This document shows positions 15,420 through 18,186 of a stretch of 64,000 nt of DNA, piece by piece. The notes beneath the pieces are model-generated. The model saw only the letters and a list, made by a program, of their open reading frames with translations. It searched no databases and was not told the DNA's origin. The DNA comes from Acidimicrobiaceae bacterium (lineage in GTDB: Bacteria > Actinomycetota > Acidimicrobiia > Acidimicrobiales > Aldehydirespiratoraceae), in contig JABIQM010000005.1 in NCBI GenBank assembly GCA_018699415.1, positions 1 to 64,000 of the forward strand, given 5' to 3'. The position numbers were made by a program, and so were the translations under genes. The number at the start of each line of letters is the position of its first letter. Position 1 is the first letter of the stretch.

Positions 15420-17039
15420 ATGACGGTCTACATTGCCGAAGAATTCACCGCCGCTGAGGCCGACGTTCTTCGTCGTTACTTCACGAACCTTGACCAGCCT
15501 GTCTTTGCTCTGGTCAATCTTCCGGAGGTTGTGAAGGGGGCACTGTTCGCCCGTTACTCACGCACTGCCCTCAGCCTCCGTCGACTCTTTCTCAAGGAGT
15601 TCGTAGGCGAACTTGATATTGAGGGTGATCGGTCCATTGACGCCACCGTCGGTCTTCGGCGCGCCGAGGAACTCTACGACACTGTCTTCTTCGAATATGG
15701 CGATGACAGCGTGGCCCAACTTGGCGGCGTTCACCTGGCCTGTGAGCAGGCATCGAACGTGCTCACAAAAATTCTTGAGTGGGGGCGCCTCATGTCGTAC
15801 CTCGAGCAGTCCACTCGATACATCGCCTATGACCAGCGTCTCGGTGGACGGTACCGGTACTACCGAGATCCGGAAATTCTCACGTCAGCACTGGGTACTC
15901 GCTATGTGGCCGACATGGACCGCATGTTCGACGGCTACTCAGGGCTGGTTCCCCAACTTCAAGAATTCTTTCGGGCGGTTGAACCCAAAGACCCAGCCGA
16001 CAGCGACTTTGCGTACCGCACCGCGATCAAGGCCCGGGCCTTGGATTCCATCCGAGGCATGCTTCCTTCCGCTTCCTTGTCCAACGTGGGTATTTACGGC
16101 ACCGGTCAGGCCTACGAGGCATTGCTGTTGCGAATGCGAGCACACCCGCTACCTGAAGCCCGTACCTACGCCGACATGATGCTCACGGAACTCCGCAAGG
16201 TCGTCCCGTCGTTCCTGAAACGAGTCGATATACCCGATCGCGGGGTGCGAACCTCTGGCTACATGTCTGACAACCACCACACCATGGAAGCATTGACCGA
16301 CACGATCTTTGGCGACTCGGTCGGCGGTCCTGTTGGTGATGACACACTCGAACTCGTCGACTTCGATCCGGATGGTGAAATCAAGGTCGTAACCGCCATT
16401 CTGTATCCCCACACTTCATTGTCGGAACGCACCGTTGATGCGCGGGTGCGCCAGATGACAGTCGACGAACGATTAGACATCATTAAGGGCTACGTCGGCA
16501 ATCGCAGCAATCGACGCCACCGTCCTGGGCGCGCCTTCGAACGTACCGATTACCGCTTCGATGTGTTGGGTGATTATGGCGCGTTTCGAGATCTCCAGCG
16601 CCACCGGATGCTGACCATTGACTGGCAGCAACTGTCCACGCGGCACGGCTACGTCCGACCAGCAGCGGTTGACGCTGCTGGCGTTGCCGATCAGTTCGAC
16701 TCGGTGATGGAGCGAAGTGCGGCCCTCTACACCGACCTTGCCGAGGACCATCCCGCTCAGGCGTCCTACGCTGTCTCACTGGCCTATCGGGTGCGGTACT
16801 CGATGCAGTTCAACGCACGCGAGGCCATGCACATGTTGGAGCTTCGTACAGGCCCTCAGGGCCATGAGGCCTACCGTCGGGTATGTCAGCGTATGCACAC
16901 GCAGATCAGCGAGATAGCAGGGCACAAGGCGCTTGCAGAAGCGATGAAATTTGTGGACCACAGCGTCGAGCCCACATTGGGTCGGCTTGAGGCACAGCGA
17001 CGGGCAGACGAGAAGCGCAGCGGCCGTGACAGTGGCTGA
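15420..17039 (+). CDS. Two-domain FAD-dependent thymidylate synthase (ThyX)-like protein
   Basis: N-half GRLMSYLEQSTRY and C-half RHRMLTIDWQQLSTRHG resemble RHRxxSxxxxSxRY; C-half FNAREAMHMLELRTGPQGHEAYR resembles ThyX C-terminus; 539 aa. Confidence 0.75.
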   Translation: MTVYIAEEFTAAEADVLRRYFTNLDQPVFALVNLPEVVKGALFARYSRTALSLRRLFLKEFVGELDIEGDRSIDATVGLRRAEELYDTVFFEYGDDSVAQLGGVHLACEQASNVLTKILEWGRLMSYLEQSTRYIAYDQRLGGRYRYYRDPEILTSALGTRYVADMDRMFDGYSGLVPQLQEFFRAVEPKDPADSDFAYRTAIKARALDSIRGMLPSASLSNVGIYGTGQAYEALLLRMRAHPLPEARTYADMMLTELRKVVPSFLKRVDIPDRGVRTSGYMSDNHHTMEALTDTIFGDSVGGPVGDDTLELVDFDPDGEIKVVTAILYPHTSLSERTVDARVRQMTVDERLDIIKGYVGNRSNRRHRPGRAFERTDYRFDVLGDYGAFRDLQRHRMLTIDWQQLSTRHGYVRPAAVDAAGVADQFDSVMERSAALYTDLAEDHPAQASYAVSLAYRVRYSMQFNAREAMHMLELRTGPQGHEAYRRVCQRMHTQISEIAGHKALAEAMKFVDHSVEPTLGRLEAQRRADEKRSGRDSG

Positions 17040-17305: not shown

Positions 17306-17737
17306 ATGTCCGAAGAAGACGACACCCCTGAAGAACAGTCACTCGAAGAACTCGCTGAGGAGGAACTCAGCGATGGCGAGCTTGATGAAGATGAGGACGA
17401 CGGCGTTGCCGACGCCTTTGAAGATGAAGATGAAGATGAGGACGACGTAGAGACTCCTGCCTCTCCTGACGATGATGACGATGACGATGACGAGGTCGAA
17501 GCAGATCTCGACGCAATCCTCAAAGTTCGGATCGCCGCCGGCGATGACGACGATGAGGACGACGACGAGGACAAACCTCTAATCAAGAAGGCGACGCCTC
17601 CAGGCGAGGCCGAACCCGTACAGGCCAAACAGGACCATGAGTTCCTCTGCCCGGCGTGCTTCCTTCTCGTCAACAACGCCGCCGTCTCCGACAGCGAATG
17701 CCCCCATTGTGGAGAACCGTTGGGCGACATTTCGTGA
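17306..17737 (+). CDS. Highly acidic protein with C-terminal zinc ribbon (DUF4193-like)
   Basis: Long D/E tracts; ILKVRI…HEFLCPACFLLVNNAAVSDSECPHCGEPLGD resembles the DUF4193 EFTCxxCFLV tail. Confidence 0.75.
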   Translation: MSEEDDTPEEQSLEELAEEELSDGELDEDEDDGVADAFEDEDEDEDDVETPASPDDDDDDDDEVEADLDAILKVRIAAGDDDDEDDDEDKPLIKKATPPGEAEPVQAKQDHEFLCPACFLLVNNAAVSDSECPHCGEPLGDIS

Positions 17738-18186
17738 ACGAGGATCGGCCCGTCGACCAGGTCCTCGACCTTTTGGTCTACGCACCGATCGGGTTCGCGC
17801 TCGAAGCGAGAGAACTCCTCCCACAACTTGTCGATCGCGGGCGCGGCCAGGTCGCTCTCATGCGGCTGGCTGGCCGCATGGCTTCTCAGCAGACGCCTGA
17901 CCGCGACGTGACTGACACGCTGCGGCAGGGCATCGGCATCGTTATCGACGGGCTCTCAACCTTGCTTGGAACCGACGAGTCTTCTTCGGATGCGCCCGCC
18001 GCTCCAACAACGGGTTCCGTCCTCGCAGGAGTGCCGATTCCCGGGTATGAGGAAATGACTGCCCGGGAGATCGTTGCCCTGCTCGCAGGTCGACCCATCG
18101 ACGAGTTGCTCACGATTCGCACTTACGAAAAAGCCAACCGGGGCCGCTCAACGATAATCAATCGCGTCGAACAGCTTCTGAGCTGA
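17734..18186 (+). CDS. Hypothetical protein (150 aa)
   Basis: GTGA overlap with upstream acidic protein gene; C-terminal REIVALLAGRPIDELLTIRTYEKANRGRSTIINRVEQLLS. Confidence 0.65.
   Translation: MNEDRPVDQVLDLLVYAPIGFALEARELLPQLVDRGRGQVALMRLAGRMASQQTPDRDVTDTLRQGIGIVIDGLSTLLGTDESSSDAPAAPTTGSVLAGVPIPGYEEMTAREIVALLAGRPIDELLTIRTYEKANRGRSTIINRVEQLLS

Follow-up and report, generated by a model that had tools for sequence, protein, structure and literature searches.

Can a protein in which no single domain carries a complete ThyX active-site motif be the thymidylate synthase of its cell? This question is raised by an open reading frame (ORF) in a 64,000-nucleotide stretch, referred to here as the window (positions 1 to 64,000 of the forward strand of contig JABIQM010000005.1, assembly GCA_018699415.1), from an Acidimicrobiaceae bacterium. 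The ORF starts with ATG, occupies exactly positions 15420-17039 (+), and encodes a 539-residue protein made of two ThyX-like halves, designated below as the double protein or double ThyX. A sequence-only reading had recognised both halves and quoted the motifs GRLMSYLEQSTRY, RHRMLTIDWQQLSTRHG, and NARE...ELRTGPQGHEAYR, all of which are indeed present. It had proposed that a ThyX gene was duplicated and fused, with each half contributing a share of a site, and that the product may be either a thymidylate synthase or a different flavin or nucleotide enzyme. Based on the homology, the segregation and invariance of active-site residues, and the replacement logic seen across genomes, the first option appears far better: with a probability of about 0.86, the double protein would be the cell’s thymidylate synthase, of a duplicated and fused ThyX type with oppositely specialised halves, having a complete site only where a C-half meets an N-half.

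Thy1 is the sole Pfam family found on the protein (118.9 bits, E 3e-34), and it matches in two separate stretches. The N-half domain lies at 15657-16211 (+), in a homologous region that probably spans about 15477-16320, and the C-half domain at 16356-16919 (+). Taken alone, they score 52 and 65.5 bits, respectively, against a cut-off of 24.8 for Thy1 (PF02511). Profile-profile comparison (hhalign) with 39 canonical ThyX sequences, headed by TM0449 of Thermotoga maritima, gave 98.8% probability (E 1e-16) for the N-half and 99.05% (E 2e-18) for the C-half, an unambiguous result in each case. The TM0449 sequence used is identical to PDB chain 1kq4, except at residue 219, near the C-terminus. A sequence search of the PDB with the whole protein returned no ThyX match. 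The double protein is a member of the Thy1/ThyX superfamily, and not a canonical ThyX. Compared directly, its halves show no significant similarity (4.7% probability), as expected if each lost what the other kept. The duplication is, therefore, deduced from the relation of both halves to ThyX, and the fusion of two already different ThyX genes could also account for the sequence.

The active-site positions of the T. maritima enzyme were mapped through the profile alignments, and the residues were counted in 113 double proteins. A separate, alignment-free motif count covered 117, including phage proteins found later. The equivalents of R78, H79, R80, and R174 are carried by the C-half, and those of S30, T55 (as Ser), E86, S88, R90, Y91, and R147 by the N-half, each at 100%. 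In the window protein, the RHR triad (78-80) is Arg394-His395-Arg396 (16599-16607), and Arg174, which activates N3 of deoxyuridine monophosphate (dUMP) (PMC8316439), is Arg476 (16845-16847). Asn465-Ala-Arg467 (16812-16820), conserved at 96-97%, corresponds to N163 and R165, two residues of the flavin adenine dinucleotide (FAD) site. In the N-half, Ser47 (15558-15560), equivalent to Ser30 of the flavin loop, was placed by hand in an A-R-x-S motif, upstream of the stretch aligned by hhalign. Ser97 (15708-15710) corresponds to Thr55 of the FAD site, and Arg212 (16053-16055) to Arg147. The string EQSTRY (15804-15821) contains Glu129, Ser131, Arg133, and Tyr134, i.e., the E86/S88/R90/Y91 active-site loop. 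All these features lie on the plus strand. Conversely, Trp121/Gly122 stand in place of R78/H79 in the N-half, and the R147 position of the C-half is Ser, Gln, Ala, or Pro, with the S88-Y91 loop left unaligned, being either deleted or unconserved. The main FAD and dUMP residues of canonical ThyX are all present somewhere in the double protein, except Q75 and H53.

The motif count gave the same picture, with E.S.RY in 116 of the 117 N-halves (the single exception has S.RF), RHR or RHNR in every C-half, and S.RY in none of the C-halves. The contiguous RHRxxSxxxxSxRY motif is, thus, split between the halves in all double proteins, which come from several phyla and from phages. This agrees with the complementarity proposed earlier from one sequence and supports a shared site. 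Nevertheless, the label ‘degenerate’ given to the motifs by the sequence-only reading is inapt, each half keeping its own share at 100%. It had rightly seen RHR in the C-half, but the ‘STRH’ that it took for a degraded S-x-R-Y falls in a profile gap, with unrelated residues in relatives. The separation is less sharp at two positions of the N-half: R238, aligned to R174 over a gap, is Arg in 96% (Ser or Asn in the Bacillota members), and R123, aligned to R80, is Arg in 97%. RHR strings also occur in the N-halves of two members (L080 and L099), off the motif position, where L080 reads WGR-LASYLEQSTRY.

Alignment and profile comparison also revealed a conserved insertion in the C-half, the RRHRPGR block (residues 365-371; 16512-16532, +), which has no counterpart in canonical ThyX, is kept in nearly all main-clade members, and is possibly a new substrate contact. 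This block, with W402 and Q403, could replace lost residues, and the C-half is the better-scoring ThyX domain. Both points would suit a thymidylate synthase with sites formed otherwise, for example between C-halves only, the N-half being structural or regulatory. Such an arrangement is very improbable, however, considering that the C-half lacks a conserved S88/R90/Y91 loop and that the corresponding N-half residues are kept at 100%, even where identity between members is about 25%.

Known ThyX structures offer a rationale for a site shared between a C-half and an N-half. In the PBCV-1 enzyme, monomer A gives Gln75 and Arg182, and monomer B gives Ser88 and Gln89 (PMC3498832). Arg182 would be the equivalent of T. 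maritima Arg174. dUMP is polarised by R174, whose partners S88, R90, and Y91 are important in the transfer of the methylene group (PMC8316439). His53 sits on a third monomer (PMC11940539). As judged from the alignments, the partition of residues in the double protein follows the A/B subunit line, the C-half standing for monomer A and the N-half for monomer B. Monomer 3 would probably be an N-half as well, because S30 and T55 are kept only there.

An assembly, cofactors, and a chemistry can be proposed accordingly by homology. A ThyX gene would have been duplicated and fused, and its halves would then have specialised oppositely. In the C-half, R394-R396, N465/R467, and R476 would bind FAD and polarise the uracil moiety of dUMP. 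In the N-half, E129-S131-R133-Y134, R212, S47, and S97 would bind the phosphate of dUMP, help to transfer the methylene group from flavin N5, and make contact with the flavin, the site being complete only where the two kinds of half meet. Two chains of this fused pseudo-heterodimer would form a ThyX-like pseudo-tetramer with two working and two vestigial sites, instead of four working ones; pairing within a chain or between chains would both be compatible with this split-site model. The products would be deoxythymidine monophosphate and tetrahydrofolate, so that no dihydrofolate reductase (DHFR) would be required.

ThyA needs DHFR and ThyX does not, since ThyX chemistry regenerates tetrahydrofolate directly. 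In the source genome (98.7% complete, 5.6% contaminated), the double protein is the only Thy1 protein, and profile searches found no canonical ThyX, ThyA, or DHFR. In a class-wide sample of 197 Acidimicrobiia genomes, nearly all at least 90% complete, 169 encode the double protein. The 28 others comprise 19 with ThyA, eight with a canonical ThyX of 220 residues (all from one genus, g57), and one, a 90%-complete assembly, with neither. Full-length ThyA and the double protein occur together in only two genomes, in one of which (G009) ThyA lies on a phage-like contig, leaving only one genome with the double protein plus a full-length cellular ThyA. Weak partial matches in G057 and G163 (51 and 77 bits) were not counted as ThyA. 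At least five family-level lineages (f27, f29, f32, f40, and f42) show such a replacement of the double protein. DHFR was found in 11 of the 21 genomes with full-length ThyA, where its gene usually adjoins thyA, versus 2 of the 176 without it. The absence of DHFR alongside the double protein is a known signature of ThyX chemistry, and the genomes follow the logic of canonical ThyX, which replaces ThyA and dispenses with DHFR.

Thymidine kinase matches are present in 101 of the 197 genomes, including that of the source organism (78.7 bits), where salvage is possible. Nevertheless, no match to ThyA, canonical ThyX, or thymidine kinase was found in 81 genomes encoding the double protein. Salvage alone cannot explain these genomes, in which neither ThyA nor thymidine kinase was found, and the double protein is, therefore, almost certainly the thymidylate synthase. 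With ThyA, canonical ThyX, and DHFR missing from the source genome and almost all its relatives, genome content strongly favours the double protein as the thymidylate synthase of this organism and of most of the class, over a different flavin or nucleotide enzyme.

Two observations concern ThyA itself. For G009, the idea that ThyA is a cellular gene coexisting with the double ThyX was rejected, since its contig is phage-like and thyA is interrupted by an ORF. On this short contig (contig 39, L171), ThyA is split by about 1 kb containing a 101-residue ORF that resembles a GIY-YIG homing endonuclease; the split gene gave no Rfam intron match. The contig also carries a DHFR-like ORF and phage-like ORFs, and probably belongs to a phage, having been binned together with the genome. 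Separately, ten f42 genomes (genera g89 and g119, including G108 and G189; L168 and L169) have a full ThyA and no DHFR_1 match, unlike other ThyA-bearing relatives, in which folA is adjacent. These ten may use another dihydrofolate reductase.

The ThyX fold also serves other chemistries. PolB (4p5a/4p5b), a Streptomyces UMP/dUMP (uridine and deoxyuridine monophosphate) methylase of nucleoside antibiotic synthesis, has the same fold and is among the structural matches of the full-length model, and ThyX paralogues with other roles exist (PMC5954106). The double protein could, then, be a methylase acting on another substrate, or the catalyst of another flavin-dependent reaction, with thymidylate coming from elsewhere; the changed His53 position and the thymidine kinase-like match in the source genome would fit. 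This is very improbable, however, for a protein that nearly the whole class encodes in a conserved chromosomal setting, that hardly ever occurs alongside ThyA or canonical ThyX, and that is found in 81 genomes in which neither ThyA nor thymidine kinase was detected. Moreover, the copy in phage Tunturi_5 adjoins a dCMP deaminase gene, with dUTPase coded nearby. PolB, in contrast, is single-domain and acts in antibiotic biosynthesis, rather than as a replacement for thymidylate synthase. The window gene does not have the neighbours of a nucleoside-antibiotic cluster, and no other synthase to which it could be accessory was found in the genome.

Several points weigh against a thymidylate synthase with a split site. 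The full-length score against the NCBI thyX equivalog TIGR02170 is 46.3 bits, below the cut-off of 87.9. Most of the sampled genomes are draft assemblies, although the pattern of absence is consistent across many of them, and the exclusion between the double protein and ThyA or canonical ThyX (Fisher P about 1e-17 by genome) is a value that overstates independence, since genomes share ancestry. His53, which matters for the stacking of flavin and folate and is present in 100% of the 39 canonical sequences, gives way to Asp in 97% of the double proteins (Asp95 in the window protein; 15702-15704, +). Gln75, equally invariant in canonical ThyX, corresponds to Asp391, and the two Asp residues are present in 97-98% of the double proteins. 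His is retained at position 53 in distant phage and plasmid members, including the three most distant ones aligned. An Asp at this position does not prevent binding, because the H53D mutant of the T. maritima enzyme has been solved with FAD and dUMP bound; one such structure (4kas) is listed among the structural matches.

Structure prediction gave a mixed answer to the earlier expectation of a ThyX fold in both halves. The full-length model has a mean pLDDT (predicted local distance difference test) of 71, good in the C-half and poor in the N-half motif region. Each of its 50 best PDB matches is a ThyX or PolB structure, and its top match in a library of viral structures is gp020 of phage Ma-LMM01, aligned over 535 columns. 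Also on the negative side, the N-half modelled alone reaches a mean pLDDT of 67, with values under 50 in the motif, and matches M. tuberculosis ThyX best, though weakly (E 0.18). The models, thus, weakly support the ThyX assignment, which for the N-half is based on the sequence profiles. A further proposal is more tentative: the double protein may be an obligate split-site enzyme with half of ThyX’s sites, in which the main-clade His53-to-Asp change and the added RRHxPGR of the C-half make the reductive or methylene-donor half-reaction different, for instance in its oxygen sensitivity or in the way folate binds, from that of all ThyX enzymes studied. This is doubtful at present.

The distribution of the double protein is wide. 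In a phylum-wide sample, proteins from several other actinobacterial families were checked and have two Thy1 matches in one long frame. Euzebya and Miltoncostaea have full-length relatives on large plasmids (46-48% identity). Others occur on a record labelled as a Parabacteroides plasmid (45%) and, more distantly, on Bacillus and Paenibacillus plasmids (23%), and the protein is also present in phages of Tunturiibacter, Microcystis (Ma-LMM01 gp020), Microcoleus, and Vibrio. Since neither half alone has the complete motif, a non-catalytic pseudoenzyme, or a fusion created by annotation or assembly, might be suspected. This has next to no chance of being right: it is already contradicted by the one-frame fusion recurring in about 169 genomes of the class, and in other actinobacterial families, Parabacteroides, Bacillota plasmids, and phages, and by the absolute conservation of catalytic residues.

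The phage and plasmid proteins (461-572 residues, about 22-30% identical) are divided in the same way: the N-half carries S.RY (S.RF in one), and the C-half carries RHR or RHNR. Unlike the main clade, those read keep His at the H53 position. They are annotated as thymidylate synthase or hypothetical. The Vibrio and Microcoleus phage genes (L174 2001-3386, L175 2363-3805, and L176 2402-3913) are annotated as hypothetical or thymidilate synthase-like, and the Microcoleus protein is the one with S.RF. Separate N and C subunits, suggested by a two-piece match in Vibrio phages, were rejected in favour of one gene encoding 461 residues. Scans of viral contigs with the A1, Tunturi_5, and Euzebya proteins returned no matches, and a scan with the Paenibacillus protein returned its own record only. 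In a tree of double proteins, the window protein falls among its Acidimicrobiia relatives, and the long branches (Parabacteroides, phages) are not placeable. One genome of another actinobacterial family (G234) encodes two different double ThyX (L149 and L150), in separate clades. The 278-kb record labelled as a Parabacteroides distasonis plasmid (L111, NZ_OY725790.1) carries double ThyX, DHFR, tRNA-modification, and other apparently housekeeping genes, and may be a misassigned piece of chromosome.

Compared with canonical ThyX (TM0449, PBCV-1, M. tuberculosis), the double protein shares Thy1 homology, a nearly full set of key residues over its two halves, and the expected independence from DHFR. 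It differs by its length (about 540 residues versus 220-260), by having RHR and S.RY on different halves, by the Asp at the His53 position, and by an expected two sites per four domains, versus four. A domain-duplicated, uncharacterised ThyX was mentioned in Chloroflexi by Valas and Bourne in 2009 (PMC3224940). The internal ThyX duplication is common to both, and from that description the Chloroflexi proteins very probably belong to the same family. The passage on them names no residues, complementarity, mechanism, or Acidimicrobiia. Plasmid relatives are already annotated as FAD-dependent thymidylate synthases by NCBI. The existence of a double ThyX and the guess at its function are, therefore, not new. 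In the open-licence literature, this was the only report of a two-domain ThyX found, and none was found of the complementary partition, the universality, or the sole-synthase role in Acidimicrobiia. The double ThyX, noticed in 2009, has apparently never been studied since.

In the window, the gene is surrounded by helicase, YegS-C-like, M20 peptidase, GNAT, and enoyl-CoA hydratase genes. Among 58 related loci, 53 have the upstream YegS-C-like gene, 37 the M20 peptidase gene, and 56 the downstream GNAT gene; with its neighbours so conserved, this is a stable housekeeping locus. Downstream lie two ORFs that overlap in different frames (17306-18186); neither gave a Pfam match, and they are matched in 16 and 24 of the 58 loci. 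The product of one is very acidic and ends with a zinc-ribbon-like CPAC...CPHC.

Thymidylate synthase is an essential enzyme and a drug target. Most of Acidimicrobiia, a class found to a large extent in freshwater and the sea, seems to rely for it on an enzyme whose architecture is uncharacterised. The double ThyX is also a natural experiment, in which a homomeric enzyme with inter-subunit sites has been turned asymmetric, its catalytic residues being divided along the subunit lines of the crystal structures. Because each site would need one N-half and one C-half, single-residue changes could be assigned to one side of the site, making the roles of individual ThyX residues, normally present in four copies per tetramer, directly testable.
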